A DNA stretch of 33,760 bases, from NCBI GenBank assembly GCA_016212095.1, contig JACRHH010000021.1, positions 1-33,760 of the forward strand. The letters run 5' to 3'. The DNA comes from Nitrospirota bacterium. GTDB taxonomy: Bacteria > Nitrospirota > Thermodesulfovibrionia > SZUA-242. This document shows positions 2,171 to 31,846 of the stretch, piece after piece. Made by a program: the position numbers and the translations under genes. How positions within the stretch are numbered: position 1 is the first letter of the stretch; every line of letters starts with the position of its first letter. Under the pieces are notes generated by a model. It searched no databases, had not been told where the DNA came from, and saw only the letters and a program-made list of their open reading frames with translations.

Positions 2171-2200
2171 TTGACATTCCCGCTCAAGCTTTCGTATTAT
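2171..2200 (+). promoter_or_regulatory. Sigma-70 type promoter of the fur-like gene
   Basis: TTGACA at 2171-2176, an 18-base spacer, and TATTAT at 2195-2200. Transcription would start near 2207. This places any start codon upstream of about 2207 outside the message and supports ATG 2222 for the regulator. No convincing Fur box was seen around it. Confidence 0.6.
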
Positions 2201-2221
2201 TGCGACAGAGTCTCAGTTGCC

Positions 2222-2701
2222 ATGCAAAAGCATAATATTGAAGCCGGATTGAGGTCTATGGGCCTGCGGATGACCCGCGAGAGGGAGCTTATCGTCGCGG
2301 AGGTCGATTCGTTCGATGGCCATTTCGAGCCGGACGAACTGCTCGACAGGATGCGCCGCAAGAACATCCGCGTTTCGCGAGCCTCGATCTACCGCACGCT
2401 TCCCCTTCTTGTCGAATGCGGAGCGATAAAGGAAGCGGTTTACAAGGACAGAAAGACGCGATACGAGCGGCTGATCGGGCGCGATCATCACGATCACATG
2501 GTCTGCACCGAATGCGGCGGGGTGATCGAGTTCGTGTCGGACGAGATCGAGCGGCTGCAGGAGGCTGTCTGCAAGCGGCACGGCTTCGGCATAGCAGGGC
2601 ATACGCTAGAAATACGCGGCGTTTGCCGCGATTGTTCGGAAGGAAAAACAGGCGCAAGCAGCGCGGGCAGGGGAAATACTAATTCAGATGCACGATCATG
2701 A
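2222..2701 (+). CDS. Fur-family metal-responsive repressor
   Basis: DNA-binding regulator of 159 residues. An N-terminal winged helix carries MTRERELIVAEV and SRASIYRTLPLLVECG (about 17-67), and the C-terminal dimerisation and metal domain carries HHDHMVCTECG (89-99) and CRDC (135-138). The two cysteine pairs C95/C98 and C135/C138 are the structural zinc site of the family. ATG 2222 is chosen over the upstream TTG 2171 because that TTG is the -35 box. The gene overlaps feoB by 14 bases, so it is very likely co-transcribed with it and probably senses ferrous iron. Zur or PerR function cannot be excluded from sequence, but the FeoB neighbour favours iron. Confidence 0.9.
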   Translation: MQKHNIEAGLRSMGLRMTRERELIVAEVDSFDGHFEPDELLDRMRRKNIRVSRASIYRTLPLLVECGAIKEAVYKDRKTRYERLIGRDHHDHMVCTECGGVIEFVSDEIERLQEAVCKRHGFGIAGHTLEIRGVCRDCSEGKTGASSAGRGNTNSDARS

Positions 2702-4655
2702 GGACAAGACGCCAAAGGGCGTGATTAACCGCGTTATCCTGATGGGAAACGCGAATGTCGGTAAAAGCGTTATTTTCGGCCTTCTCACCGGAAAATACGT
2801 TACGGTTTCGAACTATCCCGGCACGACTGTCGAGGTGACACACGGAAATGTTCGAATCGACGGCGCAACGTATCACCTCATGGACACTCCCGGCACGAAC
2901 AGCCTCATTCCGCTAAGCGAAGACGAGCGCGTCACCCGCGATATTCTCATAGACGAGCCTTTCAACTCGATCATTCAGGTTGCCGACGCGAAAAACATGA
3001 AGCGCACCCTGATGCTTGCGGTTCAGGCCGCCGAGTGCGGAAAGCCGATGGTGCTTGTCCTGAACATGCAGGACGAGGCGCGTGAGCGCGGCATAGACAC
3101 CGACAACAGGGAGCTTGCAAGCACACTTGGCATAGAGGTCATTCAGGCAATCGCGCCGCAGAAGAAGGGAATGGGCCAGATTCGCTCCGCGCTTGCCTCG
3201 CCGCGCAAGCCGACGCTTGAAGTTGCATATCCGCAGTGGATCGAGAAGGCTGTAGGCGATATTGCCGGCAAGCTTCCGGATTCGTCTGTCTCGCGCCGCG
3301 CGCTTGCGCTGATGATTCTGGCCGGCGCGCCCGGAATGCGCGACTGGCTAAAGGCGCGTCTGTCCGACGACATAATTGCCGGGATAGAGGATGTATGCGA
3401 CAACGCGCAGAAGCATTTCGACCGTCCGCTTGCCGAGGTGATAAACGTGGCGCGTCTTGCCGTGGTCGAGCGGTTGATGGCAAAGGTTGTGAGCCGTTCC
3501 GCTCCGGGAGGCGGACGCGCGCTTCAGGCTATTGGCCGATACAGCACTCATCCGTTCTGGGGTCTGCCGATTCTGGCGGCGGTTCTTTATGCGGTCTGGT
3601 TTTTCGTGGGCTACATCGGCGCCGACGTTCTTGTCGGTTTTCTTGAGGAATCGATTTTCGGGGAATATCTAAATCCGATGGCCGAACGGCTTGCCGCCGG
3701 AATTCCGGTTCCGTTCATTCGCGATCTGCTTGTGGGGCCGTATGGCGTTGTCACGATGGCGCTAACATACGCCGTGGCGATCATTCTGCCGATTACCGTG
3801 ACGTTTTTCATCGCATTCGGGATTCTCGAAGACTCCGGCTATCTGCCGAGGCTGGCCGTAATGTCGAACCGGATATTCGCCATGATGGGGCTGAACGGCA
3901 AGGCCGTTCTTCCGATGGTGCTTGGGCTTGGCTGCGTGACGATGGCAACGATGACCACGCGCATTCTGGAAACCCGCCGCGAGCGCATAATCACGACATT
4001 TCTTCTGGCGCTGGCCGTGCCGTGCTCCGCCCAGCTTGGGGTGACGATGGGGCTGCTAAGCGCTGTGTCGTATCGCGTGACCGTAATCTGGCTGATGAGC
4101 GTTGTCGGCACGCTTCTGCTTGGCGGCTGGCTTGCCTCCAAGGTGGTTGCGGGCGAGAGACCGGCGCTTTTCATCGAGCTTCCGCCCGTGCGCGTGCCGC
4201 GCATGATGAATGTGTTCAAAAAGACGATGGGCCGCGTTGAATGGTATCTGCGCGAGGCTGTTCCGCTGTTCGTTGTCGGAACGCTGATCCTGTTTTCCCT
4301 CGACCGTTTCGGGATGCTCGGCTGGATAAGGGCGGCGTTCGCGCCTGTTGTGGTGGGCTTTCTCGGTCTTCCGGAAGCTGCGGCGGATGCGCTCATCATG
4401 GGATTCCTGCGGCGTGATTACGGCGCGGCCGGATTCTTTACGATGTTCAAAAACGGCCTGCTCACTCCGGCGCAGGTTACGGTTTCGCTTGTGACTGTAA
4501 CGCTTTTCGTGCCGTGTCTTGCAAGCTTTCTGATGATGGTGAAGGAGCGCGGAATGAAGTCGGCAGCCTTGATGCTGGCGATAGTGATGCCGTATGCCAT
4601 ACTTGCCGGCGGGGTGGTGCGTTTCACGATAGAGATGTTTGGCATAAGTTTTTAG
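2688..4655 (+). CDS. feoB: Ferrous iron transporter FeoB
   Basis: Inner-membrane ferrous iron permease of 655 residues with an N-terminal G domain. G1 is GNANVGKS (20-27), switch I contains SNYPGTT (41-47), G3 is DTPG (66-69), and G4 is NMQD (126-129). The membrane part begins near residue 290 and shows alternating hydrophobic helices, the GLGCVTMA segment, and FLRRDYGAAGFF near the C-terminus, a landmark of many FeoB proteins. It is shorter than the roughly 750-770 residues of E. coli FeoB. The N-terminus is His/Asp-rich (MHDHED). FeoA is not a separate gene; its domain appears fused to the next gene's regulator. The start overlaps the fur-like gene. Confidence 0.95.
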   Translation: MHDHEDKTPKGVINRVILMGNANVGKSVIFGLLTGKYVTVSNYPGTTVEVTHGNVRIDGATYHLMDTPGTNSLIPLSEDERVTRDILIDEPFNSIIQVADAKNMKRTLMLAVQAAECGKPMVLVLNMQDEARERGIDTDNRELASTLGIEVIQAIAPQKKGMGQIRSALASPRKPTLEVAYPQWIEKAVGDIAGKLPDSSVSRRALALMILAGAPGMRDWLKARLSDDIIAGIEDVCDNAQKHFDRPLAEVINVARLAVVERLMAKVVSRSAPGGGRALQAIGRYSTHPFWGLPILAAVLYAVWFFVGYIGADVLVGFLEESIFGEYLNPMAERLAAGIPVPFIRDLLVGPYGVVTMALTYAVAIILPITVTFFIAFGILEDSGYLPRLAVMSNRIFAMMGLNGKAVLPMVLGLGCVTMATMTTRILETRRERIITTFLLALAVPCSAQLGVTMGLLSAVSYRVTVIWLMSVVGTLLLGGWLASKVVAGERPALFIELPPVRVPRMMNVFKKTMGRVEWYLREAVPLFVVGTLILFSLDRFGMLGWIRAAFAPVVVGFLGLPEAAADALIMGFLRRDYGAAGFFTMFKNGLLTPAQVTVSLVTVTLFVPCLASFLMMVKERGMKSAALMLAIVMPYAILAGGVVRFTIEMFGISF

Positions 4656-4672
4656 CACACGAAAGGATTTTT

Positions 4673-5311
4673 ATGAGCCACGAATGCCGCCACGAGGAGA
4701 GCATCGACGAGATGCTCGAAACATTCTGGGAACTGAGGGAGCGAAACGTGCTGACGAGGCAGGCACTGGGCGAGGCGCTGTCGGATGCGTCCGTGGAGAT
4801 GCTTGCGTCAAAAGGGATGATCTCGTTCGACGGCGACACGCCGGTTCTTGGCGCCGACGCCGAAGCTCGCGCCCGCGACATCGTGCGGCGACACCGGCTT
4901 GCCGAGCGCCTGTTTCACGATGTGCTCGATCTCTCGAACTATGAGGCCGACGCGTGCAGCTTTGAGCATGTGATAAGCAAGGATGTGGAGGAGGCGTTAT
5001 GCACATTTTTAGGGCATCCGCCCACATGCCCGCACAACAAGCCGATTCCCAAAGGCGCGTGCTGCCGCGCCGGAACGCGCAAGTTCACGCCGCTTGTCTC
5101 GAACCTGAATCATATCGATGTGGGAAGCCGCGCAACCGTGGAGTTCCTGAACACGCCGCATCTGGACAAGCTCGCCTCGATGGGGCTTTCGCCCGGCAGC
5201 GTTATAAGGCTCATCCAGAAAAGCCCGTCGGTGGTGATTCAGATAGATGAAACAACTCTGGCGCTCGACGGCGAAATAGTGAAGGGCATCTACGTGAAAA
5301 GCGTTTCATAG
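4673..5311 (+). CDS. DtxR/MntR-family regulator fused to FeoA domain
   Basis: A 212-residue protein starting at ATG 4673 behind GAAAGGA (4661-4667). Residues about 5-60 form a short and divergent winged helix. The next part is the metal-binding dimerisation domain of DtxR proteins: VRRHRLAERLFHDVL, ACSFEHVISKDVEEAL and CPHNKPIPKG. The last 75 or so residues are a FeoA/SH3-like domain with the pattern LNHIDVGSRATV, KLASMGLSPGSVI and ALDGEIVKGIYVK. The role is probably iron- or manganese-dependent control of the feoB unit, and the FeoA part may also act on FeoB. It follows feoB by 17 bases. The recognition helix is weaker than in typical DtxR, so DNA binding is inferred. Confidence 0.88.
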   Translation: MSHECRHEESIDEMLETFWELRERNVLTRQALGEALSDASVEMLASKGMISFDGDTPVLGADAEARARDIVRRHRLAERLFHDVLDLSNYEADACSFEHVISKDVEEALCTFLGHPPTCPHNKPIPKGACCRAGTRKFTPLVSNLNHIDVGSRATVEFLNTPHLDKLASMGLSPGSVIRLIQKSPSVVIQIDETTLALDGEIVKGIYVKSVS

Positions 5312-9627: not shown

Positions 9628-10185
9628 ATGCGAACGGAGTTTATCGAAACTGCGCTTCCGGGAGTGCTGATTGTTGAGCCGGCGGTTTACAGGGACAGCC
9701 GGGGCTTTTTTCTTGAGATGTGGCAGCAGACAAGATACGTTGACGGCGGCATCGACGCGGTTTTCGTGCAGGATAATCACTCTCGCTCATCATATGGCGT
9801 GCTTCGCGGCCTTCATTATCAACTGCGCCATCCGCAGGGCAAGCTGATCTATGTGGTAAGCGGCGAGATATTCGATGTTGCGGTGGACATAAGGCGCGGT
9901 TCGCCGACTTTCGGCAAATGGGTGGGTGTGGTGCTTTCCGGCGAGAACAAGCGTCAGTTGTATGTTCCGGAGGGTTTTGCCCACGGTTTCTGCGTTATGA
10001 GCGAAACTGTCGATGTCATGTATAAATGCACCGACTACTACTCGCCGAAGGATGAATGCGGGGTGAAATGGGACGATCCTTCGCTTGGGATCAAATGGCC
10101 GGTTGATTCGCCGGTGCTTTCTGGCAAGGATGAACTGAATCCGTTATTGAGCGATATTCCCTCCGAACGCCTGCCTCATTATTGA
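9628..10185 (+). CDS. rfbC: dTDP-4-dehydrorhamnose 3,5-epimerase
   Basis: Cupin-fold epimerase of 185 residues acting on dTDP-4-keto-6-deoxyglucose. Landmarks are RGFFLEMW, VQDNHSRSSYGVLRGLHYQ, KLIYVVSGEIFDVAVD, GSPTFGKWVG and YVPEGFAHGF. The catalytic histidine lies in RGLHYQ and the later active-site tyrosine in YKCTDYYSPKDE. It starts one base after rfbA. The stop codon TGA (10183-10185) is made half of old target sequence and half of an inserted mobile element; without the insertion the same protein would end at TAA. The encoded C-terminus LPHY is therefore unchanged. Confidence 0.96.
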   Translation: MRTEFIETALPGVLIVEPAVYRDSRGFFLEMWQQTRYVDGGIDAVFVQDNHSRSSYGVLRGLHYQLRHPQGKLIYVVSGEIFDVAVDIRRGSPTFGKWVGVVLSGENKRQLYVPEGFAHGFCVMSETVDVMYKCTDYYSPKDECGVKWDDPSLGIKWPVDSPVLSGKDELNPLLSDIPSERLPHY

Positions 10186-10309
10186 CACCCTCGTAAAAAG
10201 TCGTCATTCCCGCTTGTCGGGAATCTTGCTGCCGCGTAACACCTTGATAAAGAACGATTCCGGACAAGCCGGAATGATAAAAAAGGCCGGTTTCGACTTT
10301 TTACGAGGG
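10184..10309 (+). mobile_element. 126-bp MITE-like element with 10-bp target duplication
   Basis: A perfect 16-bp inverted repeat bounds it: CCCTCGTAAAAAGTCG at 10188-10203 and its complement at 10294-10309. Inside are two smaller hairpins, ATTCCCG/CGGGAAT near 10205-10223 and ATTCCGG/CCGGAAT near 10258-10275. The 10-mer CCTCATTATT stands on both sides (10174-10183 and 10310-10319), as expected for a target-site duplication. No coding capacity. The outer left end carries four extra bases (GACA) not mirrored on the right. The orientation is arbitrary. Confidence 0.75.
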
Positions 10310-10425
10310 CCTCATTATTAACCTGCGGCAAGGGCGACAAAACCTCCTGCCCGTCAGCCGCCTCCCCTAAAGTATTGTCAACAAGATGTCGATGATAATT
10401 TGTTCATCCGGTGCATTGTGAGGGG

Positions 10426-10472: not shown

Positions 10473-10679
10473 GAGGTCTGGTTATGGCGATATGCCGGAG
10501 AAATGGCTTGAAAACGGTACATAGGCGGAATATTGAATGAGCGCCAATGAATTGAGTTGGAGCGTAAAAAAACACAAGGGGAGGTTTGCGGGTTTAGTTG
10601 GCTGCGTTATTTCGCGCTGTTCAAGTTGGGTGACACAGGTTTCCTGCTTTTCATACACATTCGGGGTTCAGGAGGTTTA

Positions 10680-13600
10680 ATGATGGAGATTCATTGTCGA
10701 GGGAAGGGAAGTAACAATTGGAGGCCGGCATCGTTCATGTTTGCCTTTATGGCAATGTTTGCAGCCGCATTCGCGGTTCCGGGCATGGCCGAGGCATTGA
10801 ACGGCACGACAGCCGGAACGGCGACAGCCGTCTCGGCGGACGGCGGTATCACGGTGAGCGCGGATTACACCGACGACACCAATGCCAACAACACTCTCAC
10901 TGTCGAATGGGGTATTGCCGACTATTCGATGGGCACGCAGACGGTAGTTCATGCGGCAAGCCCCTATGCCTACACGATTCCGGGCCTGACAAACGGAACA
11001 GCGTATCGCGTGAGGGTTACCTATCTGGATGCCGACGGGATTATCGGCGGGGTTGCGGTTCAGACGTTCACCAACGTCATTCCGTCGAACCAGTTGATCC
11101 ACAACTCGGCCACCACCCGTTCAACCAAATGGGGCGGCCTCTGGGGCGTCGCGGGCGGAAAGTATGGTGAATTCACCTGCGAAACCTGCCATGAGAAGAA
11201 CGCTGTAAACATCAAGATGCTGAAGTCGAACATCACGGCTCCGAATTCGCCGACCGACGCCTTCCCCGGAAGCGCGCTTTCGGCAACCGACGCCCGTGAC
11301 GGTTCATCCGATTTCGGAAACGACGCCGTCGCCCACACAACCTCGACAAAGGTTTGCGAAGTCTGCCATACGCAGACAACGTTTCACCGTTACAACACAG
11401 CCGGACAGGCGTCGCTCGATCATAACAACGCCCGTGATTGCGCCCGTTGCCATCGCCACGGAGTTGGTTTCAGAAGCTCAGGCTGCGCAACCTGTCACGG
11501 CAATCCTCCTATCGACAACAGCTCGCTTGTTGGCTATCTCTATCCGAGCAGCACCGGATCGACAACCGCCGGCGCGCACAACAAGCATGTAACCGGCAAG
11601 GGTATCGCCTGTGAAAGCTGCCATAGCGGCAGCGTCGGAACCGGCGCAACTCACGATGCCGGATCGGTAACGGTTGGATTCTCGCTCTTCAGCGGCGCTT
11701 ACACCGGCGGCGCATACGATGGTCAGACAACCGTGACATACAACGCAACCGGCACAACCACTGTTACCGCAACCGGACAGGCAAAGTGTTCGAACCTGTA
11801 CTGCCATTCAAACGCGTCGCCTCTTAACGGAGTTAACGCATATGCGCAGCCGGTCTGGTCCGGAGCCGCGACGGCATGTAATTCCTGCCACAGCGCTCCC
11901 GCGGATGGAACCAAAACATGGTCTTCCAGCCACACGAAGCATACTGCCGATTATGGCTATACCTGCGACAGCTGTCACTCGCTGACGGCCGGAAGCAACA
12001 CCACGATCATCGACCAGTCGAAGCACGTTAACAACGTGAAGGATATTGCGATTGCGGCAACCTACGGCGGAACGTATGCGTTGGGCCAGTGCTCGAACGT
12101 CTATTGCCACGGTAACGGCGACGGCGGCGTGGGCGCGGTGACACCGGCGTGGACGGTAACGGCCATGACATGCGGAAGCTGTCACGCGGCCACACCGGCA
12201 ACCGGAAGCCACAGCGCGCATACCTCAAGCTTCAACTGCTCACTCTGTCATAACGCAACCACAACCAACGGCACCACGATAGCCGACAAGACAAAGCACG
12301 TCAACAAGGTGAAAGACATCGCGTTTGATGTGAATTACGGCGGCACCTATACCGCCGGCGTCGGATGTTCGGCCACCTACTGCCACGATCCGTCCGGCGC
12401 AAGCGTTGTCAGCCCCGCATGGGGCGGCACGCTTCCAGACGTTGCGCAGTGCGATTCGTGTCACGGCGGCAACAAGACATCGACCAATGCTGCGGGACGC
12501 GGCCCGATCGTAACCGGCGCGCACACTGCTCATATCAATAACTCCGATGCAAACCTCGGTTCGTTTGGTTGCGGCAAGTGTCACTACAATACCGTTGCCG
12601 ACGGCAACGACCGCACCATCACAGGCGCGGCGTTCCACGTCAACAAGGCGGTGGATGTTCCTGTAACCTGTACAACCGCCTGCCACAAGGACGGCCACGG
12701 CACAGCCGTTGCTCCTCCGGCATGGACAAGCGGCACGAACCTCACCTGCAAGGGCTGTCATGGAGCGGCAACATCAAGCTTCGGCGAGCCTGATTACGCA
12801 ACCGGCAACAGCCACGCCAAGCACGTTCTTGCGGCTTCCGACTGCGGCAAGTGCCACAACAGCACATCTACCACGGGCACAAGCATAACCGGCGCCCTTC
12901 ACCTGAACGGCGTGTCCAATGTTGTAATGTCCGCCACCTATGGCGGAAGCTATCTGGCCGGAACAGGCTGTTCGGCCACTTACTGTCACGATCCTTCAAA
13001 TATCGGCACGGTCAGCCCCGCGTGGGGCGGAGCGCTTGCCGATTCCGCGCAGTGCGACTCCTGTCATGGCGGTAACAAGGCATCCACTAACGTTGCGGGC
13101 AGCGGCCCGATCGCAACCGGCGCGCATACGGCGCATATCAACAACACTGATGCGAACCTTGGTTCGTTTGCCTGCGGCAAGTGTCACTACAACACCGTCG
13201 CCGAAACCGATGACCGCACGATCACAGGCGCGGCATTCCACGTGAACACAGTGAAGGACGTTCCTGTAAACTGTACGACTGCCTGCCACAAGGACGGCCA
13301 CGGCACAGCGGTTGCTCCTCCGACATGGGCGAGCGGCCTGACACTTTCCTGCAAGGGCTGTCACGGTTCGGCAACATCGAGCTTCGGCGAGCCTGACTAC
13401 GCAACCGGCAACAGCCACTCCAAGCACGTTTCGGCGGCTTCGGACTGCGGCAAGTGCCATAACAGCACATCAACCAACGGCACAAGCATCACCGGCGCCC
13501 TTCACCTGAACAGCGTTTCCAACGTAGTGATGTCCGCCACCTACGGCGGCACATACACCGCCGGCGTTGGTTGTTCGGCCACCTACTGTCACGATCCGTC

Positions 13601-16121
13601 CGGCGCCAGTGTTGCAAGCCCGGCATGGGGCGGAACGCTTGCGGACGCCGCGCAGTGCGACTCCTGTCACGGCGGTAACAAGTCGGCAACAGCGGTTGCC
13701 GGACAAGGCCCGATCACAACCGGCGCTCACACGGCGCATATCAACAACGCAGACGCGAACCTCGGTTCGTTCGGCTGCGGCAAGTGTCACTACAGCACCG
13801 TAACCGACGGCGACGACCGCACAATCACCGGCGCTTCCTTCCATGTCAACACAGTGAAGGACGTTCCTGTAACCTGTACAACCGCCTGCCACAAGGACGG
13901 CCACGGCACGGCAGTTGCTCCTCCGACATGGACGAGCGGCCTGACAATCACCTGCAAGGGCTGTCACGGTTCGGCAACATCGAGCTTCGGCGAGCCTGAC
14001 TACGCAACCGGTAACAGCCACTCCAAGCACGTTTCGGCGGCTTCGGACTGCGGCAAGTGCCATAACAGCACATCAACCAACGGCACAAGCATCACCGGCG
14101 CCCTTCACTTGAACAGCGTTTCCAACGTAGTGATGTCCTCCACCTACGGCGGCACATACACCACCGGCGTTGGTTGTTCCGCAACCTACTGTCACGATCC
14201 GTCCAACATCGGCTCGACAAGCCCCGCATGGGGCGGCACGCTTGCCGACAGCGCGGAGTGCGACTCGTGTCACGGCGGTAACAAGACATCCACCAACGTT
14301 GCGGGCAACGGCCCGATCGCAACAGGCGCTCACACGGCGCATATCAACAACGCCGACGCGAACCTCGGTTCGTTTGGCTGCGGCAAGTGTCACTACGATA
14401 CCGTCACCGACGGCAACGACCGTCTGATAACCGGTTTGGCGCACGTAAATGCCTCTGTTGACGCGCCTGTCAACTGTACCACCGCCTGTCACAAGGACGG
14501 CCACGGCACAGCGGTTGCTCCTCCGACATGGGCGAGCGGCTTGACGCTTTCCTGCAAGGGCTGCCACGGCTCGACCTCGTCGAGCTTTGGCGAGCCTGAC
14601 TACGTGGGCGGCAACAGCCACTCCAGTCACGTCGGCGCGGCGTCGGATTGCTCAAAGTGCCATAACAGCACCACGACAACCGGCACAAGCATCACCGGCG
14701 CGCTTCACTTGAACAGCGCGTCAAACGTTAATTTCGCCACCGGTTACGGCGGCATATACACGGCGGGCGTCGGATGTTCGGCCACCTACTGTCATGACCC
14801 GTCCAACGCCGGCGTTGCAAGCCCGGCATGGGGCGGCACACTTTCCGATGTTGCACAGTGCGACTCCTGTCACGGAGGTAACGCCGCATCAACAAGCGTT
14901 GCCGGACGCGGCCCGATGGCCACCGGTTCGCATACAACGCACGTTGCCGGCCAGAGCTTCGACTGCGCCAATTGTCACTCCGCTACCGTGACTCTCGGCA
15001 ACGACCGTCTGGTAACAGGCGCGGCAAATCACGTCAACAAGGTAACAAACGTTGCTTTCAGCGCGGGCGGCAGCTATGCCGGCAGCCAGTGCTCCAACAT
15101 CTCCTGCCATAGCGATGGCAAGGGCAACTACATCAACCCCACATGGGGCGGCACATCAACCGGCTGCGACTTCTGTCATGGCAATCCGCCTGCAACAGGC
15201 GTTCATGCCAAGCACGTCAAGACCGGAGCATCGGCTTACGGCAGCACGGCGGTTGCGTATGACGCAAACGGCTGGATCAATGCCGGATGCGGAAACTGTC
15301 ACCCGACAAGCGCTTCCAGCCATCGTAACGGAAGTGTCGATACCTCGCTTGCCGCTGCTGACGGCGGCACGCTCAAGTCGAAGAACGGCGCGGGCGCTGC
15401 CTACACACCGGCCACCGGCAAGTGCAGCAACGTCTATTGCCATTCAAACGGCTACGACACCAATCTCGTATATGCGCTCACGCCGGACTGGAACAATTCA
15501 ACCGGCACATCTTGCGACTCTTGCCACGGCAACTCGCCGAACTCGACGATTCCTGGTTCGAGCTCGCACTTCAACACCTTTGTGCGGTCTGACGGTCAGA
15601 CCGTTGGCAAGGGCCACTTCGTGGGCATTCACTTCACCAGCATATACACCGGCACAACCGGTCTGGCATCAGCGGGCAACACCGCCGCAGGCAGCCATGG
15701 CAACAGCACGACCGCTTACACGATCAGTTGCTACACCTGCCATAACGACACCGTCAGTGTTGCAGCCAATGCCGGTAACAACGTCTGCGGAACCTGCCAC
15801 ACCAACGGCGGCCCGCAGGTTGGCGACACTCTTGCCACTCTCAAGGCAGGAAGCATCAGCCACATCAACGGTCAGGTTGACATAGTCTTCCAGAGCGCGG
15901 CCCTGAAGTCGAAGGCTCAGCTCAGAGACGAGAGCCTGCCTGCTTCATGGACACGTAACGTCGGCTACAAGGTTGCCGGCGCTAATGACAGTGCGGTCAG
16001 CGCTCTTGCTCCGACCGCATACAACTCCAGCACAAAGACCTGTACGGTTGCGTGTCACAACGAACAGCCGGTTACGTGGACAAGCAGCGTGAGCTGCTCA
16101 AGCTGCCATACCGGTCTATAA
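10680..16121 (+). CDS. Giant secreted multiheme c-type cytochrome, 47 heme motifs
   Basis: Exported protein of 1,813 residues starting at ATG 10680 (or 10683) behind GGAGG at 10671-10675. A signal peptide ends at about GMAEA. Then a fibronectin-III-like domain follows (about 45-130, with YTIPGLTNGTAYRVRVTYLD). The rest is Gly/Ser/Thr/His-rich cytochrome. I count 33 CX2CH, 5 CX3CH and 9 CX4CH motifs: 11 before, 24 inside and 12 after four tandem hexaheme repeats of 201 or 200 residues. Order per repeat: CSATYCH, CDSCH, CGKCH, CTTACH, CKGCH, CGKCH. The CSxxYCH plus CDSCHG pattern is the Geobacter CxxxxCH cytochrome type. Likely role: electron storage or transfer at or beyond the outer membrane. 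No membrane anchor or porin partner is adjacent. Heme loading at CX3CH and CX4CH is inference. Confidence 0.95.
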   Translation: MMEIHCRGKGSNNWRPASFMFAFMAMFAAAFAVPGMAEALNGTTAGTATAVSADGGITVSADYTDDTNANNTLTVEWGIADYSMGTQTVVHAASPYAYTIPGLTNGTAYRVRVTYLDADGIIGGVAVQTFTNVIPSNQLIHNSATTRSTKWGGLWGVAGGKYGEFTCETCHEKNAVNIKMLKSNITAPNSPTDAFPGSALSATDARDGSSDFGNDAVAHTTSTKVCEVCHTQTTFHRYNTAGQASLDHNNARDCARCHRHGVGFRSSGCATCHGNPPIDNSSLVGYLYPSSTGSTTAGAHNKHVTGKGIACESCHSGSVGTGATHDAGSVTVGFSLFSGAYTGGAYDGQTTVTYNATGTTTVTATGQAKCSNLYCHSNASPLNGVNAYAQPVWSGAATACNSCHSAPADGTKTWSSSHTKHTADYGYTCDSCHSLTAGSNTTIIDQSKHVNNVKDIAIAATYGGTYALGQCSNVYCHGNGDGGVGAVTPAWTVTAMTCGSCHAATPATGSHSAHTSSFNCSLCHNATTTNGTTIADKTKHVNKVKDIAFDVNYGGTYTAGVGCSATYCHDPSGASVVSPAWGGTLPDVAQCDSCHGGNKTSTNAAGRGPIVTGAHTAHINNSDANLGSFGCGKCHYNTVADGNDRTITGAAFHVNKAVDVPVTCTTACHKDGHGTAVAPPAWTSGTNLTCKGCHGAATSSFGEPDYATGNSHAKHVLAASDCGKCHNSTSTTGTSITGALHLNGVSNVVMSATYGGSYLAGTGCSATYCHDPSNIGTVSPAWGGALADSAQCDSCHGGNKASTNVAGSGPIATGAHTAHINNTDANLGSFACGKCHYNTVAETDDRTITGAAFHVNTVKDVPVNCTTACHKDGHGTAVAPPTWASGLTLSCKGCHGSATSSFGEPDYATGNSHSKHVSAASDCGKCHNSTSTNGTSITGALHLNSVSNVVMSATYGGTYTAGVGCSATYCHDPSGASVASPAWGGTLADAAQCDSCHGGNKSATAVAGQGPITTGAHTAHINNADANLGSFGCGKCHYSTVTDGDDRTITGASFHVNTVKDVPVTCTTACHKDGHGTAVAPPTWTSGLTITCKGCHGSATSSFGEPDYATGNSHSKHVSAASDCGKCHNSTSTNGTSITGALHLNSVSNVVMSSTYGGTYTTGVGCSATYCHDPSNIGSTSPAWGGTLADSAECDSCHGGNKTSTNVAGNGPIATGAHTAHINNADANLGSFGCGKCHYDTVTDGNDRLITGLAHVNASVDAPVNCTTACHKDGHGTAVAPPTWASGLTLSCKGCHGSTSSSFGEPDYVGGNSHSSHVGAASDCSKCHNSTTTTGTSITGALHLNSASNVNFATGYGGIYTAGVGCSATYCHDPSNAGVASPAWGGTLSDVAQCDSCHGGNAASTSVAGRGPMATGSHTTHVAGQSFDCANCHSATVTLGNDRLVTGAANHVNKVTNVAFSAGGSYAGSQCSNISCHSDGKGNYINPTWGGTSTGCDFCHGNPPATGVHAKHVKTGASAYGSTAVAYDANGWINAGCGNCHPTSASSHRNGSVDTSLAAADGGTLKSKNGAGAAYTPATGKCSNVYCHSNGYDTNLVYALTPDWNNSTGTSCDSCHGNSPNSTIPGSSSHFNTFVRSDGQTVGKGHFVGIHFTSIYTGTTGLASAGNTAAGSHGNSTTAYTISCYTCHNDTVSVAANAGNNVCGTCHTNGGPQVGDTLATLKAGSISHINGQVDIVFQSAALKSKAQLRDESLPASWTRNVGYKVAGANDSAVSALAPTAYNSSTKTCTVACHNEQPVTWTSSVSCSSCHTGL
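12366..14938 (+). repeat. Tandem 603-bp coding repeats in the cytochrome gene
   Basis: Unit boundaries taken at TGTTCG/TGTTCC of the CSATYCH motif lie at 12366, 12969, 13572, 14175 and 14775, giving units of 603, 603, 603 and 600 bases and a partial fifth that fades out near 14938. The 600-base unit lacks one codon just before its CTTACH motif. A degenerate piece of the unit precedes the first copy at about 12240-12365. Repeats two and three are nearly identical at the DNA level over their last third. Confidence 0.92.
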
Positions 16122-16163: not shown

Positions 16164-16180
16164 ATAACGGGTTTCGCCCA

Positions 16181-16236
16181 AACCCCGCGTCATAATCCGG
16201 CAACCCCCTCCGCCGGAAGCTGACGCGGGGTTTTTT
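16181..16236 (+). terminator. Rho-independent terminator after the cytochrome gene
   Basis: AACCCCGCGTCA at 16181-16192 pairs with TGACGCGGGGTT at 16221-16232 and is followed by TTTT. The loop itself contains a CCGGC/GCCGG stem. Confidence 0.85.
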
Positions 16237-20339: not shown

Positions 20340-20762
20340 ATGAACCCCGCATTCGAAATTCTCGACATATCCGGCGATGCCGGGCTTCGGCTTCGTGCCG
20401 ATGACATGAGCACATTGCTTGAGGTCGCCGCGCAAGGCCTTGCCGAGCTTGTCACCGATCCGGCGCTGGTGCGCGAGGAACGCTCCGAACGCGTATCCGT
20501 GACCGCCGATGACGACGGCGCATTGCTTGTGGAATGGCTGAACGAACTGATATTTCTGCTTGACGCGCGCGGATTCATGGCGGCGAGGGCCGAGGTTGCC
20601 ATGACGGGGCCGCATGGCGTTGAAGCGGTTATTTTGGGCGAAACGTTCGATCCGTCGCGTCACGAGCGGCGGCTTTTGGTGAAAGCCGCCACTTACCACT
20701 GCCTTTCCGTGCGAAAGACGGACGACGGCGCAATTGTGGCCGAGGTTATTCTGGATATTTAA
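20340..20762 (+). CDS. Archease, RtcB ligase activator
   Basis: Protein of 140 residues with the archease pattern: FEILDISGDAGLRLRADD at the N-terminus, LLEVAAQGLAELVTD, LLVEWLNELIFLLDARGF in the middle, and LLVKAATYHCLSVRKTDDG towards the end. The conserved Asp at 13 (SGDAGL) and the C-terminal Asp (ILDI) match known metal-binding sites. Archease helps the RNA ligase RtcB turn over during tRNA or RNA repair. rtcB is not in the window. Its stop codon interlocks with that of convergent cbiO in the sequence TTAA. No clear ribosome site is seen. Confidence 0.9.
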   Translation: MNPAFEILDISGDAGLRLRADDMSTLLEVAAQGLAELVTDPALVREERSERVSVTADDDGALLVEWLNELIFLLDARGFMAARAEVAMTGPHGVEAVILGETFDPSRHERRLLVKAATYHCLSVRKTDDGAIVAEVILDI

Positions 20763-21751
20763 TGCCCGTGGCTGTTGTCATGTCCGGCCACTTTTGCCAG
20801 CGTGAGCGCCTTCCCGAAAAGCCCGCTGATTTTTCTTGTTTCAGCCGCGATCTCATCCAGCACGCCGGCCAGTTCCGGCTTGCCCATCTCGCGGGCTTTA
20901 CCCGCCCATTCCGAGTAGGTTCCTGCGTGCTCCTCGTTATGCTCCAGCCAGTGAGAAATCCTGTGCGCCAGTTTTGACATGTCGTCCATAGTTGCGTCTC
21001 CTTTTGCTCTTCTGCCTGCTTCGCGCTGCATCGAAAGCGGAAGCTCAAGATTGTTCGCTTCAAGCAGTTCTCTTGAAGTAAGTATGTCGATAGCCGGGCC
21101 GTCCGCCCGCACAACGCCGTCGCCGATGATTATGCATCTGTCGCAGACGTCCAGAATTAAATCCAGATCGTGCGAGGCGATGATCTTTGTGTGCTCGAAC
21201 CCGTTTAATAGCTCGATAAGCCGCCGCCTTGCCTTCGGATCGAGGTTCGACGCCGGTTCGTCCATTATCAGGATGTCGGGCTCCATCGCGATGACCGATG
21301 CAATGGCCACCGCGCGTTTTTGCCCGCCGGAGAGATTGTGCGGATGCCGGTTGGCCAGATGCGCCGCGCCCACGCGGGAAAGCGCGTTCATGGCCCGCGT
21401 CTGCGCTTCCGCGCCGCCAAGCCCCAGATTAAGCGGGCCGAAGGCCACGTCGTCCAGCACTCGCGGCATGAAAAGCTGGTCGTCCGGATCCTGAAACACG
21501 ATGCCGACACGCTTCCTGATTTCCCGCCTGTTTTTTGCCGTAATCGGCGTGTGGCCAATAGAAACCTCGCCGCTGTCGGCAAGCAGATGCCCGTTTGAAT
21601 GCAGAAGGATGGTGGTCTTGCCCGATCCGTTCGCGCCGACGATGCCGACCGATTCGCCGTGCGTGATCGTGAATGTTACGCCGCGCAAGGCCTCGGTTCC
21701 GTCGGGGTATGCGTGGCAGACGTTGTCATACTCGATTATGTGATGGCTCAC
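20759..21751 (-). CDS. cbiO: Cobalt/nickel ECF transporter ATPase with C-terminal extension
   Basis: Energy-coupling ATPase of 330 residues. Walker A is GANGSGKTT (39-47), the Q-loop is FQDPDDQLF, the signature is LSGGQKR, Walker B is ILIMDEPASNLD, and the switch is ASHDLD. The normal domain ends by about residue 245. A further 80 residues (KGDATMDDMSKL to HDNSHGH) form a helical, His-rich tail containing HRISHWLEHNEEH. Similar modules also occur as separate proteins; the function is unknown. The GTG start at 21751 overlaps the cbiQ stop by four bases (GTGA). Third gene of the porin-cbiMQO unit. Confidence 0.93.
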   Translation of the reverse strand: MSHHIIEYDNVCHAYPDGTEALRGVTFTITHGESVGIVGANGSGKTTILLHSNGHLLADSGEVSIGHTPITAKNRREIRKRVGIVFQDPDDQLFMPRVLDDVAFGPLNLGLGGAEAQTRAMNALSRVGAAHLANRHPHNLSGGQKRAVAIASVIAMEPDILIMDEPASNLDPKARRRLIELLNGFEHTKIIASHDLDLILDVCDRCIIIGDGVVRADGPAIDILTSRELLEANNLELPLSMQREAGRRAKGDATMDDMSKLAHRISHWLEHNEEHAGTYSEWAGKAREMGKPELAGVLDEIAAETRKISGLFGKALTLAKVAGHDNSHGH

Positions 21752-22578
21752 CGCGCGCCTCCGGCAACCATCTGGCCTACAAGCTGGCCCACAAGCGTGG
21801 CGATGTTTACTGTCCGCATTACGGCAAAACCCGAAATTGCCGCGACTGCAAACAGCGCGTCGGCAAGCTTCAGTTTATCTTCCCGAAGCGTTCTCATCTC
21901 GCCGTCGAATCCGCGGGCGGTCATCGCGGCGTGAATGCGCCCGGCGCGGGAGGCTGTCCGCAGGAACAACGCGCCGATGAGATGCGAAACCGTTTTCATG
22001 CCCGGAGTTGAAGATCCCTCGCCGAACGAACGGGCCTCGAAGGCGCGAAGCATCCGCCGCGATTCGTCGCCAAGCACGAAAAGGTAGCGGTAGAGGAAAA
22101 GAAGCTGGGTGGTGAAGGCCACTGGCGCGCCAAGACGTTCGAGCGCCCGGCAGACCCCGTTGAACGATGTGGTGGAGATAAGCACAACCGCCGTGGAAAC
22201 AGTAAGCGCAAAGCGCACCATTATCGACGCGAACGAGAGCCAGCCGCCTGAAATTGCAACGCCGCCGACATGCATCACCGGCGTTGTGTCGAAAAACGGA
22301 TTGAACGCCCCCACCATCAACGCAAACGGCGAAACCACAATAACCTTGCGCGTCACAAGGCCAAACGGAATGCCGCCCACAGCCGCCATCATCACCGGAT
22401 AGAGAAAAAACGGCGTCAAACCGGATACTTCACGCTTCGGAAACGACACCACGCATACGATGAAGGCCACGGCAACCAGAAGCTTGACGCGGGCGTCGAG
22501 CCTGTGAGCAGGGCTTTCGGCGCAGGAAAGCCGGTCGAGCGCGGTGATGTCGAAGTTGAAGTATCCGGTTTTTGTCAT
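21748..22578 (-). CDS. cbiQ: Cobalt/nickel ECF transporter T component
   Basis: Transmembrane coupling subunit of 276 residues. It starts with FDITALDRLSCAESPAHRLDARVKLL, typical of CbiQ. Five or six membrane helices are visible. The two coupling helices contain RAFEARSFG and HAAMTARGFDG, the Ala-Arg-Gly-type motifs that dock onto the ATPase. It starts 10 bases after cbiM ends and overlaps cbiO. Together with CbiM and CbiO it forms the uptake complex in the inner membrane. Confidence 0.94.
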   Translation of the reverse strand: MTKTGYFNFDITALDRLSCAESPAHRLDARVKLLVAVAFIVCVVSFPKREVSGLTPFFLYPVMMAAVGGIPFGLVTRKVIVVSPFALMVGAFNPFFDTTPVMHVGGVAISGGWLSFASIMVRFALTVSTAVVLISTTSFNGVCRALERLGAPVAFTTQLLFLYRYLFVLGDESRRMLRAFEARSFGEGSSTPGMKTVSHLIGALFLRTASRAGRIHAAMTARGFDGEMRTLREDKLKLADALFAVAAISGFAVMRTVNIATLVGQLVGQMVAGGAR

Positions 22579-22588
22579 GCCGCTGAAA

Positions 22589-23587
22589 TTATCCGGCCTT
22601 TTTCCTGCCGGAAAACATGCGGATCAGAAAACCGGCGGCAAATACGAACGCAATAACTATCGCCCCGCCCGCAACAGCAGAAACCGAGCTTCCGGTATTG
22701 TGAGCAGGCCATGTATCCACTGCCTGTTCGCTGCTTCCGCCGAATCCGTAATCGGGCAGGACAGCGGTTTTTTTCTGCAGACCGGCCAGAAAAGATGCAG
22801 CGCCGGATTCCCTTCCCTCAATCTCCTCCCGCCCGGATGTCTTGCCGATCGACCATTCAAGGCCGTCAGGCTTCGACGATGCAAACCACGAAAAAACTCC
22901 GCCGACAACCATCGCGGCAAGCAGTATGACAGCCGCCGTCTTTTTCCAGTTTACGGCTGCCGCATCCTCATGCCTCCAACCGGCTGCCCATACATATGAA
23001 ACCGCTCCCGCAGTCACAACGCCCTCGACAATCCCAATGGCAAGATGTATGGGCTGCATGAACGAAACAAACACCTTGAATGGAAGTTCGGAGATGCCGG
23101 ACATGACAGTTTGAAGCACAACCGAGAACGCGCCAAGCTGAAGCGCCGCAATTGCGGAAACCACTACGGCGAAAACAGCCCTGCCGCCATTGCCGGCAAT
23201 TGGCCTGTAAACAAGCGGATACGCAACGAAACATGAGTAGAAGCCGAGGTTCCAGATATTACAACCAAGCGCCAGAAGGCCGCCGTCGGCAAAGAAAAGC
23301 GCCTGCACAACCAGCACCGACGCCATCGCGATGAACGCGGCATGTGGCCCAAGCAAAATGGCAAGCAGAAGCCCGCCGCCTATATGCCCGCTTGAACCGG
23401 TTCCGGGAATGGCGAAGTTGATCATCTGCGCCGCGAATACGAACGCCGCCAGCACGCCGGTCAAGGGAACAAGCTTTTCGTCGATTTCCTGCTTCAGCTT
23501 TCTTGAACTATATGCTATTGCGGACAGCGACGCCGCCCAGAACGCGCCGCCGACAGCGGGTGAAATTAGTGCGTCAGCCATGTGCAT
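22589..23587 (-). CDS. cbiM: CbiM substrate-binding component fused to PDGLE (CbiN-like) domain
   Basis: A 332-residue S component. It begins MHMADALISP; in this family the N-terminal Met-His pair coordinates the metal directly, so the start is secure. CbiM membrane helices cover about 1-210 with GSSGHIGGGLL, HAAFIAMAS and QPIHLAIGIVEGVVTAG. The later part carries KPDGLEWSI (about 243-251) and a final helix, which is the PDGLE/CbiN-like part often fused in nickel or cobalt systems. A GGAGG stands nine bases upstream. Cobalt and nickel cannot be told apart from sequence; lack of a cobalamin riboswitch here leaves nickel possible. Confidence 0.93.
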   Translation of the reverse strand: MHMADALISPAVGGAFWAASLSAIAYSSRKLKQEIDEKLVPLTGVLAAFVFAAQMINFAIPGTGSSGHIGGGLLLAILLGPHAAFIAMASVLVVQALFFADGGLLALGCNIWNLGFYSCFVAYPLVYRPIAGNGGRAVFAVVVSAIAALQLGAFSVVLQTVMSGISELPFKVFVSFMQPIHLAIGIVEGVVTAGAVSYVWAAGWRHEDAAAVNWKKTAAVILLAAMVVGGVFSWFASSKPDGLEWSIGKTSGREEIEGRESGAASFLAGLQKKTAVLPDYGFGGSSEQAVDTWPAHNTGSSVSAVAGGAIVIAFVFAAGFLIRMFSGRKKAG

Positions 23588-23636
23588 GAAAAAACACCTC
23601 CATTCATTCGTTTCTTGCCCAGCGCATCCGGAACTG

Positions 23637-24770
23637 CTAGAACTTCACGCCCAATCGGGCAAGAACCGCGCTTTCGTCAACGGCCCTTCTCATTCTGATG
23701 GCCCGATATTCGACGCCCATATATGCGGCTGTATCGCCGTCAACATGAAAATTACATCGCGCGCCGACGCTTCCCACGCTTTCAACCGAGGCGGCTCCGG
23801 TTTTGGCGGACATTCCGCCATCGTCGAACGTCTCGTAGCGCAAAGCGATCTCGACCGGTTCGGCCAGAAGATGCGCGCGTCTCACCCAATATGTGCCGCC
23901 AGGCTCGCGTTTTTCGTCCGTTCCGCGAAACACGTAGGCAAGGCTCAGGGACAAGGCCGCATCCCTGAACCCTCCGGCATCGGCGCCGGATTTATCGAAA
24001 TACGTCTCGCGCTGCAACGCGCCGATATATTCCGCATCCACCCTGAATCCTTCGATAAACAGGCAGTTGTAGTTGATCCCGATGCTGAAAGACTCATTCC
24101 GCCTGTCTTTGCCGGGCTCGGAAAGATACGAAGCCGACAGGGCAAGATGATGCGGAACCGGAGTGAAAGCCGCGTTGAAAATCATGGACGAAACATCTTC
24201 CGTATCCGGCCCGGCCCTTTTGACCGTTTCGGCGTCGAACAGGCCGGAGGAGAACAGATGATCCATCATCTCCGCTCCCTTGTAGACGCTCAACGACAAC
24301 TCGGATGCTCCGTTGCCGCCACGGAATCCGGCTGTTACGCCGGGCCGTTTGGTTTCGTATGCCGATTGGGTCAGAGGATCGGAGACCAGATGGTTTTCAA
24401 AAACGCCAAACGGCAGGGTTCGCAAGCCGAACGTATAATAGTACGGCTTCCCGACGGGTTCGAAGGCGATGGTGGCTTCATCGACCACAAGAGGCGCTTC
24501 ATCCTTTGCGCCGATGTTTTCCATCAGCAGGACAGACCTGCCGGTTATCCATTCCGCAATCGACGCCTCAACCCCAAACTCCACCTTGCTCACGAACATG
24601 TCGGAAGATGTTCTTTCGGCCTTGTTCCATGACGCGTCCATCTCCACGGCTCCGGAAATGGTTATGCGCTCCGGCCATGTCCTGCCGCCGGATTCCGAGG
24701 CGTGGGCGGGAAGACAGCCAAGCGCCAGCACAATTACTGCAAGTTGAAATGTGATCAGATATGGTTTCAT
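23637..24770 (-). CDS. Outer-membrane porin-like beta-barrel protein linked to CbiMQO
   Basis: Protein of 377 residues with a signal peptide (MKPYLITFQLAVIVLAL... ending at PAHA). The mature chain shows alternating beta-strand patterns throughout and ends in VLARLGVKF, with the C-terminal Phe expected of outer-membrane barrels. Segments such as ITISGAVEMDASW and FGLRTLPFGVF resemble the LbtU-type siderophore porin family. ATG 24770 is preferred; ATG 24788 overlaps the GGAGG that serves 24770. It lies 49 bases before cbiM and is probably in the same operon, so it may let metal or a metal chelate through the outer membrane. No TonB box or plug domain is seen. Confidence 0.75.
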   Translation of the reverse strand: MKPYLITFQLAVIVLALGCLPAHASESGGRTWPERITISGAVEMDASWNKAERTSSDMFVSKVEFGVEASIAEWITGRSVLLMENIGAKDEAPLVVDEATIAFEPVGKPYYYTFGLRTLPFGVFENHLVSDPLTQSAYETKRPGVTAGFRGGNGASELSLSVYKGAEMMDHLFSSGLFDAETVKRAGPDTEDVSSMIFNAAFTPVPHHLALSASYLSEPGKDRRNESFSIGINYNCLFIEGFRVDAEYIGALQRETYFDKSGADAGGFRDAALSLSLAYVFRGTDEKREPGGTYWVRRAHLLAEPVEIALRYETFDDGGMSAKTGAASVESVGSVGARCNFHVDGDTAAYMGVEYRAIRMRRAVDESAVLARLGVKF

Positions 24771-24800
24771 CCCGAAAATTACCTCCATGTGTTACTTCGG

Positions 24801-24862
24801 TAAATAAAAAAGCCACAAAGGCTTCAGAACCGTTCCCGATCCGTGAAAAGCCTTCGTGGCTT
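24801..24862 (-). terminator. Terminator or attenuator hairpin in the porin-cbiMQO leader
   Basis: Arms of 15 bases (24848-24862 and 24810-24824, AAGCCAC-A/G-AAGGCTT with one mismatch) followed on the minus strand by TTTTATTTA. It lies after the czcA stop and also just after a good promoter, so it could end czcA transcripts, attenuate the porin operon, or both. Confidence 0.7.
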
Positions 24863-24877
24863 GAAATTCGAGTTATG

Positions 24878-24907
24878 AACATACCATGTGGGAGACGAGG
24901 CTGTCAA
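24878..24907 (-). promoter_or_regulatory. Sigma-70 type promoter of the porin-cbiMQO unit
   Basis: TTGACA at 24907-24902, an 18-base spacer and TATGTT at 24883-24878 on the minus strand. It begins one base after the czcA stop. Transcription would start near 24870, a few bases before the hairpin. Confidence 0.5.
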
Positions 24908-27900
24908 TTATATTTCCTCCTCGCCCCTTCTCTTCTCAAACCAACTGTACACCGACGGGATTATCAGCAATGTGAGAAGCGTTGACGTAACCAGGCCGCC
25001 CACAACAACCGTGGCCAGAGGTTTCTGGATCTCGGATCCTGCTCCGCCAGCAAGCAGCATCGGGATGAGGCTGAAAATCGCGATGGACGCGGTCATCAAC
25101 ACAGGGCGCAGCCGGTCTGCTGTTCCTTTCCTGATGGCCTCCTGCAACTCAAGCCCTTCCTCGCGCAGTTGCGAGATGCGCGACACAAGCACAAGTCCGT
25201 TCAGGACGGCAACGCCAAACAGCACGACAAACCCGACCGACGCCGGAACCGACAGGTATTGCCCTGAGATGAAGAGCGAGAATACCCCGCCGATCAGGGC
25301 AAACGGCAGATTGGAAATTACCAGCAGCGCCAACCGGATAGACCGGAAGGTGACGTATAGAAGCAGCAGGATCAGGCCGATGGCCACCGGCCCGATGATC
25401 ATCAGCTTTTTCATGGCCCGCTGCTGGTTTTCGAACTGTCCGCCCCATGTGAGATAGTAGCCGGGCGGCAGATTTACGTTATCCTTTATCTTCTGTTTCG
25501 CCTCGGCAACGAAGCCGCCGATATCTCTGCCGGTGATGTTCATCTCTATTCCGATCCTTCTCACCCCGTCTTGCCGGCTGATCTGAACCGGGCCTTCAAT
25601 CATCTTTACATCCGCCAACTGCTCAAGCGGAACATTGACGCCGGTTTTAGTGGTGATTGTCAGATTCCTGATCGCTTCAAGGGAATTCCTTTTTTCTTCC
25701 GGAAGACGCACCGTTATGTCGAAGCTGCGGTTCTCCTCGTACAGTTGCGACGCCGCCTTGCCTGCCACCGCGATTTCGATCACCTTCTGCACGTCGCTGA
25801 TATTCAGGCCATATCGTGCAATTCTCGCCCTGTCGATGTCTATTGTCAGATATGGCTGCCCCGCAACCTTTTCGGCGCTCAGATCGGTTCCGCCCCGGAC
25901 GGTGGATAGAACCCTCGCGATCTCGGCCGATTTTCCGCTGAGAACGTTGATGTCCTCGCCAAAGAGTTTCAGAATGAGCTGCGCGCGGGTTCCGGCCACG
26001 AGTTCATCGATGCGGCACTGTATCGGCTGGCTAAATCCGACTGAAATTCCAGCTATCGACTCCAGAGCCTCACGCATCTCATTGGTCAGCTCCTCCTTGG
26101 AAATGTCCCTTTTCCATTCACTCTCTGGCTTGAAGATGCCCACATATCCGGTCTTGTCCGTGCCTCTGGTGTCCAGCGCCACTCCGGTCTGTCCTGTTCG
26201 AGACACTATAGTCCCCAGTTCCGGAAACTGCTTCAGCTTTTCCGCCACTTTCTGGTTCACCTCCATCGCCTTGGCCAGGGAAACACCGGGGAGCATAGAG
26301 ACATCCATATCGAACGAGCCTTCATCCATGGTCGGAATGAACTCGGTTCCCAACCGTGTTGACAGGAAGAGCGAGGCAACCAGAAGAACTCCGGCAATGC
26401 TCAACACCACCCGCTTGCTGTTCATCGCAAAATCCAGCAGGGGCAGGTAGAGCCTGTTTGCATGTTTCATGAGAAAGCTCTCTTTTTCCGGGTGCGGCCT
26501 AAGGAATATGATGCAGAGCGCCGGGATGACAAACACCGACAGAAACAGCGACGACAGAAGCGCGATGGCGACAGTGACCGCCAGCGGGCCGAACATTTTT
26601 CCTTCGATTCCTTCCAGCGATAGAATCGGAATGAAGGTGAGCGCGATGATGAGTTCGCCGAAGATGCTCGGCTTTCGAACCTCCATCACCGCCTTGAGCA
26701 CCGTCATCAGTTTAGGATGCCGCCCCCCTTCCTCGCTAAGGTTTCGCTGGACGTTTTCCACCTGGATTATGGTCGTGTCGATGATCATTCCGATGGAAAT
26801 CGCCAGGCCGCCCAGTGACATCAGGTTTGCACTTATGCCCGCAATCTTCATCACGATGAACGTGGCCAGAAGCGACAGCGGCAGAGCTATGAGCACCACG
26901 ATACTGCCGCGGATGCTGTTCAGAAGCAGGTAGAGCACGATCAGAACCAGAATAGAGCCTTCAACCAGAGCCGTGTTGACCGTGCCGACGCTCGCCTTCA
27001 CAATGTCGCTTCTGTCGTAGTAGGGAACGATTCTGATCCCTTCTGGAAGCACATTGTTCTCATTCATTTCATCGACTTTTGCCGCCACGCGGCGCACAAC
27101 GTCGCGGCTGTTCTCGCCGCGCAGCATCATCACGATGCCGCCGACGCATTCATCCTTGCCGTCTTTCATGGCGGCGCCCATGCGGACGGCCTCGCCAACC
27201 TTCACCTGCGCCACGTCCCTGATATAGGTGGGAGTGCCGCCATGGGATTTCAGGACGATATTTTCGATGTCGCCGACATCCTTGATTAATCCGATCCCCC
27301 GGACAATGTATTGATCCGTTCCGCGCTCCAGAAGGTTGCCGCCGACGTTTTCATTGTTGCTGCCGATGGCTGAGAAGACGTCATCCACGGCTATCGCGTA
27401 TTTCAGCAGTTTTTCCGGCGACACGATCACCTGATACTGCTTGAAATACCCGCCGTAGGAGTTGATCTCGTTCACTCCGGCCACGCTTTTCAACTGGGGT
27501 GTGACGATCCACTCCTGAATGGTGCGCAGATTGGTCAGATAGGCGATCTTCTGTCCCGGATCAGCCGGCATCTTTCCTTCGAGGGTGTACTGGTAGATCT
27601 CGCCCATGGCCGTGCCGATTGGCCCCATGGCAACCTCGACCCCCTTGGGAACCTTCTCCCGCGCCTCCGCCAGCCGTTCAAAAACAAGCTGCCGCGCAAA
27701 ATAGATGTCCACATTATCTTTAAATACAATGGTGACAATCGACAGGCCGAACTTGGTGACCGAGCGCATCTGCTCGATATCGGGCAGGCCGCGCATCGAC
27801 ATCTCGATGGGATAGGTTACGTTCCTCTCGATCTCTATCGCCGACAGGCCGTCCGCGTGGCTTACCACCTCAACCTGAATGTTCGTTACATCGGGAAAGG

Positions 27901-28012: not shown

Positions 28013-28055
28013 CGGCGCTTTCTCCTTTTAGCGGCGCTTGCTCCGCCCTTGCTGA

Positions 28056-30601: not shown

Positions 30602-30669
30602 GGAAATGACCTCCTTAAATCGAATTACCCCTGAACCGGGGCAAAACTACTTCCGCCGCAGTTTTAAGG

Positions 30670-31029: not shown

Positions 31030-31043
31030 TATGTTGCCTTTGC

Positions 31044-31073
31044 AATATAAGCAATCGAAAGAAACATTGTCAA
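31044..31073 (-). promoter_or_regulatory. Strong sigma-70 promoter of the Cys-rich-czcCBA operon
   Basis: TTGACA at 31073-31068, an 18-base spacer, TATATT at 31049-31044 on the minus strand. Eleven of twelve hexamer bases match consensus. A start near 31037 leaves only about eight bases before the ATG. No convincing MerR-type dyad was seen in the spacer. It makes the pump independent of the upstream riboswitch gene. Confidence 0.7.
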
Positions 31074-31087
31074 GAAGCGTCAATACC

Positions 31088-31828: not shown

Positions 31829-31846
31829 TGCGAAAATACCTCCACG

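Follow-up and report, generated by a model that had tools for sequence, protein, structure and literature searches.

A 47-motif TIGR01904-family cytochrome with tandem hexaheme units in a Nitrospirota bacterium, a probable extracellular or cell-surface heme wire or charge store

The stretch of DNA analyzed here (33,760 nucleotides, hereafter the window) is the entire contig C15 of a 2.97-Mb Nitrospirota genome and encodes a multiheme cytochrome with 47 heme-binding motifs. With a probability of roughly 0.7, this protein is an exported member of the TIGR01904 family that acts outside the cell or at its surface as a heme wire or charge store. This interpretation is based on the 47 motifs, a TIGR01904 score of 338 bits and seven conserved non-motif histidines per six-heme unit, as well as on the presence of four such units versus two in a paralog (Q), a contrast in dS values, a dN/dS of 0.18–0.26 between units and a predicted fibronectin-III-like (FnIII-like) fold. 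It is further based on the location of other giant cytochrome genes of this genome and its relatives beside genes for NHL, FG-GAP, BACON, PKD or FN3 proteins, on the presence of genes for ResB and a CcsA-type assembly protein, and on the Geobacter cytochrome GSU1996 as a solved single-chain precedent. Counted against it were the solitary position of the gene, the absence of an adjoining conduit gene and the absence of an MtrB/PioB homologue from the genome.

Gene, heme motifs and modular organization

The open reading frame starts at ATG 10680, ends with a stop codon at 16121 and encodes 1,813 amino acids (Table 1). Its 47 motifs comprise 33 CX2CH, 5 CX3CH and 9 CX4CH, a count identical to that made by eye in the preliminary description. 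In 200 shuffled sequences of the same composition, a mean of 0.76 and a maximum of 4 motifs were found. Each of the nine CX4CH motifs is followed by a CX2CH. There are 38.6 residues per motif over the whole chain and 33.5 within the units. Since the chain contains 55 non-motif histidines for 47 motifs, bis-His ligation of all hemes would be possible. No RNA family was found upstream of the gene.

Table 1. Features of the cytochrome gene and its product (window coordinates).
Feature	Position	Strand	Basis
AGGAGG ribosome-binding site, ATG 10680 4 bases on	10670..10675	+	sequence reading
47-motif multiheme cytochrome c gene, TIGR01904 family, 1,813 aa	10680..16121	+	motif count; TIGR01904 and Pfam matches
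Probable type I signal peptide, residues 1-39	10680..10796	+	inspection only: hydrophobic run, then PGMAEA/LN
FnIII-like beta-sandwich, residues ~50-135	10827..11084	+	predicted fold, Foldseek matches
N-terminal heme module, from residue ~141 (...KWxxxWGVxGGKYGxFTCxTCH...), first 10 motifs	11100..12236	+	alignment with 10 relatives; windowed BLAST
Hexaheme unit U0, residues 520-721	12237..12842	+	
Hexaheme unit U1, residues 722-922	12843..13445	+	
Hexaheme unit U2, residues 923-1123	13446..14048	+	
Hexaheme unit U3, residues 1124-1323	14049..14648	+	
Half unit U4, residues 1324-1428, one triheme; divergence from paralog Q near here	14649..14963	+	
C-terminal heme module, residues ~1440-1813	14997..16118	+	windowed BLAST
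Possible terminator, GC-rich inverted repeat ending GGGGTTT, 3' of gene	16180..16233	+	22-nt arms, 86% complementary

The proposal that the chain is secreted was supported by a probable export signal, which was recognized by inspection of the N-terminus. Residues ~50–135, downstream of this signal, were modelled as six strands with a pLDDT of mostly 60–82. The best Foldseek matches of this domain in the PDB were FnIII domains (integrin beta4, fibronectin and others) with a probability of 1.00; their E-values started at 1.6e-3, none being at or below 0.001, and the target TM-score of the best match was 0.65. In contrast, the Pfam fn3 model matched the domain with an E-value of 0.015 and 15.9 bits, below its gathering cut-off of 25 bits. 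Because the predicted fold agrees and the fn3 score is below the cut-off, the domain was named FnIII-like. The FnIII-like N-terminus of the preliminary description was thus supported at the level of the predicted fold. That this domain tethers the protein, as had also been suggested, is a guess.

A second element of the preliminary description, four tandem hexaheme units of 201 or 200 residues with a constant motif order, was confirmed with a slight adjustment of lengths. Units U0 to U3 are arranged head to tail and span 202, 201, 201, and 200 residues (residues 520–1323), with a DNA spacing of 603, 603, and 600 bases. The order X2-X4-X2-X2-X3-X2 is fixed in every unit, so that the four units contribute 24 motifs. 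Protein identity between units is 74–86%. The two halves of a unit align at 36–48% identity (z 3.3–6.1 against shuffles in which C and H were kept fixed), which indicates that the hexaheme is a duplicated triheme. Triheme blocks make up most of the chain: four CX2CH motifs precede 14 blocks that each carry one CX4CH or CX3CH. An AlphaFold2 model of three tandem units, computed from a 17-row alignment, had a pLDDT of 35 and was unusable for heme spacing, and modelling gave equally poor results for the heme region at the N-terminus.

Repeats are known to mislead assemblies, and a contig of a relative (L067, described below) terminates within an array of this kind. In principle, the present array or the junction of its two ends could therefore be an assembly artefact, or the gene could be decaying. 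This explanation is hardly credible. The units are distinguishable, differing at 15–25% of their DNA positions, the 5.4-kb frame is open with 47 of 47 motifs intact, the dN/dS between units is low, and both types of terminal module co-occur in two relatives, G008a and G011b.

The TIGR01904 model (GSu_C4xC__C2xCH, CxxxxCH/CxxCH domain) matched the cytochrome in 14 stretches with a score of 338.1 bits (cut-off 27), and Pfam matches were obtained to PF14522, PF09698, and PF22113. The model for triheme nanowire cytochromes, TIGR04257 (c(7)-type), scored 16.5 bits, below its cut-off of 40. Searches of PDB sequences with the protein, a unit profile and an N-terminal profile returned only weak multiheme or chance matches. 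These profile matches point to a very long TIGR01904/PF09698 protein and not to a new class. A role chiefly as a terminal reductase, in which a catalytic site is fed with electrons by the repeats as a stalk, would fit the unique N- and C-terminal modules on either side of the array, which are also conserved among relatives. However, no enzyme domain was found in the protein by Pfam or NCBIfam, triheme blocks form most of the chain, and the 55 non-motif histidines would allow all hemes to be bis-His-ligated, giving no indication of an open heme site. A reductase is therefore very improbable.

Unit number and mosaic ends relative to paralog Q

The same genome encodes paralog Q (53 motifs), which is 71% identical to the cytochrome across residues 20–972. 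Q contains two and a half units, versus four and a half in the cytochrome. This difference of four complete units versus two bore out the earlier proposal that the units are modular and that chain length can be changed by adding them.

Among the units of the cytochrome, 0.60–0.74 of third codon positions are shared, versus 0.37–0.45 in comparisons with units of Q, pairs at the same position included. Correspondingly, dS is 0.45–0.80 within the array and ranges from 2 to saturation against the units of Q. These far lower values within the array demonstrated that it was multiplied or homogenized after the split from Q, with function kept. The dN/dS among the units of the cytochrome is 0.18–0.26, and the units are under purifying selection. 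A clade of U1, U2, and U3 that excludes U1 of Q received 97% support on DNA and only 64% on protein. In U0, the first 90 bases are nearest to U0 of Q (0.78, versus 0.51–0.56 for the neighboring units) and the remainder is nearest to the neighboring units, a patchwork that is the pattern left by gene conversion or unequal recombination.

G008a (30 motifs) and G011b (31 motifs) match both ends of the cytochrome and yet have no array, which favors a gain of units in the cytochrome rather than a loss in Q. A point against simple gain is ORF1, a gene adjacent to Q in the same genome, which contains about 1.7 units.

In windowed BLAST searches, the cytochrome tracked Q up to residue ~1400 and then departed from it. 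Residues ~1500–1813 matched G011a, ORF1, G011b, and G008a at roughly 33–52%; the C-terminal heme module is common to these four and absent from the C-terminus of Q, whose final thousand residues correspond to other regions of the family. Since the cytochrome follows Q only to residue ~1400 and its C-terminal fifth resembles other genes, the family is a mosaic: genes have exchanged N-terminal, unit and C-terminal modules, and the switch lies close to where the unit array ends. It is equally possible that Q is the rearranged gene. The idea that the cytochrome arose within this genome as a hybrid of Q and ORF1 was considered and dropped, as G008a and G011b match both ends.

Genome context and distribution among relatives

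The cytochrome gene stands alone, with rmlA/rmlC-type sugar-nucleotide genes on one side and an ammonium transporter gene on the other; no porin, periplasmic cytochrome or other conduit gene adjoins it. MtrB/PioB homologues, the only porin types sought, were absent from the genome. Across the genome, 64 TIGR01904 domain matches were found in about ten large proteins. Four giant cytochrome genes with 39, 53, 29, and 13 motifs, including that of Q, lie in a row on contig C37 (L059:2820-18999 and L060:3-3098) and are preceded by a gene for an FG-GAP-repeat protein. The genes for ResB and for a CcsA-type cytochrome c assembly protein lie ~10–15 kb beyond this row. The second and third cytochrome genes of the row share a reading frame and are divided by a single stop codon, but a separate hydrophobic N-terminal segment is present in the third. 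The genome also has sulfite-reduction genes and encodes DsrA (536 bits, above the cut-off); an apparent in-frame TAG in dsrA proved to be its normal stop codon. Together with the distribution of relatives, the dsr genes would fit a Thermodesulfovibrionia-like bacterium, which is a guess.

Several other features of the window were recorded. A palindromic, MITE-like element of 131 bp (10180–10317), with 24-nt terminal inverted repeats that are 88% complementary, lies between rmlC and the cytochrome gene; of its copies elsewhere in the genome, one is full-length (87% identity), one nearly full (81%), and two are partial. Genes for Fur, FeoB, and a DtxR/FeoA-type regulator, involved in iron homeostasis, occur in a row at 2171–5311, ~5 kb upstream of the cytochrome gene. 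On the minus strand, a cobalamin riboswitch (31944–32112) directly precedes a CbiM gene. This gene is followed, within 20759–32112, by genes for a TolC-like protein, a CzcB-like adaptor, a CusA/CzcA pump, an LbtU-like porin, a second CbiM, CbiQ, and a CbiO-like ATPase, a group for cobalt uptake and metal efflux.

Across the 230 genomes surveyed from the class, the unit was matched at 190 bits or more only in the source genome, in three genes, and more weakly in 19 further genomes. In the sample of the phylum, a 147-bit unit match was found at a contig end in one genome of another class, and a pattern scan of genome contigs returned a single weak relative, which belongs to a Geobacteraceae MAG and has 30% identity. 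No unit relatives were found in viral contigs or in plasmids, which gives no indication that the unit came from a mobile element.

In-chain repeats with different periods recur across the phylum. Expressed as best identity over 100 residues, repeats of 197 aa (97%) were found in L067, which belongs to the same taxonomic family, 460 aa (88%) in L065, 245 aa (67%) in L107, 187 aa (65%) in the third gene of L059, 466 aa (80%) in L117, and, as a candidate heme-bearing repeat, 99 aa (92%) in L120. The L067 frame (L067:2870-5998, G001:C183) has 29 motifs and a hexaheme repeat; as its 6-kb contig ends inside the frame, this array may be longer than is visible. An open frame of 3,813 residues (L118:5615-17053, G249:C24), which comes from a different class of the phylum and has 57 motifs, is among the longest family members in this set. 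In relatives, giant cytochrome genes adjoin genes for large non-heme proteins in a recurring neighborhood (L066, L068, L069, L070, L071, L072, and L074), in which the non-heme neighbors carry NHL/FG-GAP/SBBP beta-propeller repeats or BACON, PKD, or FN3 domains.

Proposed function and comparison with known cytochromes

In the proposed mechanism, hemes would be arranged along a single chain by triheme blocks, some of them duplicated into hexaheme units of 201 residues, and electrons would hop between neighboring bis-His hemes. The FnIII-like domain may bind or space the cytochrome at the surface or within the matrix. Recombination between in-frame repeats would shift the number of units, giving four here and two in Q, and N- and C-terminal modules have been exchanged among giant cytochrome genes. 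The sequence data establish the motifs, the family, the units, their differing number in Q, their multiplication or homogenization after the split, the purifying selection and the mosaic relationship; heme loading, an extracellular location, conduction and a role of the FnIII-like domain are inferred.

Location is the point at which the main alternative differs. The protein could be a periplasmic charge store or periplasm-spanning wire of the GSU1996/GSU2210 class; single-chain cytochromes of repeated trihemes with 12 and 27 hemes have been described as periplasmic, no lipoprotein or outer-membrane anchor was visible, and no porin gene adjoins. However, the FnIII-like domain and the position of other giant members beside surface-type beta-propeller, BACON, PKD, and FN3 proteins point away from the periplasm, as do Geobacter bioanode genomes, in which the cytochromes with the most hemes are predicted to be extracellular or of unknown location. 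A periplasmic protein was therefore judged unlikely, and an extracellular or cell-surface wire or charge store was preferred.

A further, tentative suggestion is that in-frame recombination between similar heme modules still lengthens, shortens and re-joins giant cytochromes in this lineage, which is possible but doubtful. If true, the length of a heme wire would be an evolvable and perhaps population-variable trait. What stands out is that the closest relative, Q, has only two units and that the units have recombined with each other. The paralog pair, 71% identical over ~950 residues with four versus two units and different C-termini, represents a natural experiment on the growth of giant multiheme cytochromes and on the dependence of conduction or charge storage on chain length. 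At 201 residues, the unit is short enough for expression singly, as a dimer or as a tetramer.

The suggestion in the preliminary description that the protein may define a distinct large-cytochrome architecture was not upheld. TIGR01904/PF09698 is a known family, relatives with 30–31 hemes and no array match the N- and C-terminal modules, and both repeat-built cytochromes with up to 85 hemes and the gain and loss of heme domains have already been published. A literature search that included few subscription papers found no publication on an FnIII domain combined with a TIGR01904 hexaheme array.

PCC3-type extracellular cytochromes, proposed to be molecular wires, have a median of 34 motifs and up to 85, in repeats that each bear a heme site, with 22–39 residues per heme (He et al., 2017, PMC5566968). 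They share with the cytochrome very many motifs arranged in repeats, but their median of 26 residues per heme compares with 38.6 here, and they are co-encoded with a porin and a periplasmic cytochrome, neither of which was seen beside the present gene. Among large cytochromes of Burkholderiales and Anaerolineales, CxxCH domains, in pairs or multiples, are inserted in or deleted from one close homologue relative to another; the parts of the study consulted describe no hexaheme array, FnIII-like domain or homogenized units (Arbour et al., 2020, PMC7399161).

The cytochrome has alternating CX4CH and CX2CH motifs in common with other TIGR01904/PF09698 proteins. The present protein is larger than most, with lineage-specific 201-aa hexaheme units, and CX3CH replaces CX4CH in every second triheme. 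GSU1996 (12 hemes) is a solved single-chain wire of repeated trihemes, with a linear heme array and gaps of 3–5 Å, and a c7 fusion with 27 hemes (GSU2210) is also known. The cytochrome resembles both in being one chain of repeated triheme modules, which are c7-like in GSU1996 and GSU2210. These two are shorter and have been described as periplasmic, whereas the present protein misses TIGR04257 and has CX3CH and CX4CH motifs and an FnIII-like domain.

OmcS, OmcE, and OmcZ filaments are polymers of small subunits with 4 to 8 hemes. They are likewise long heme chains for extracellular electron transfer, and had no sequence match to the cytochrome in the PDB searches; in the cytochrome, in contrast, many units are fused in a single chain.
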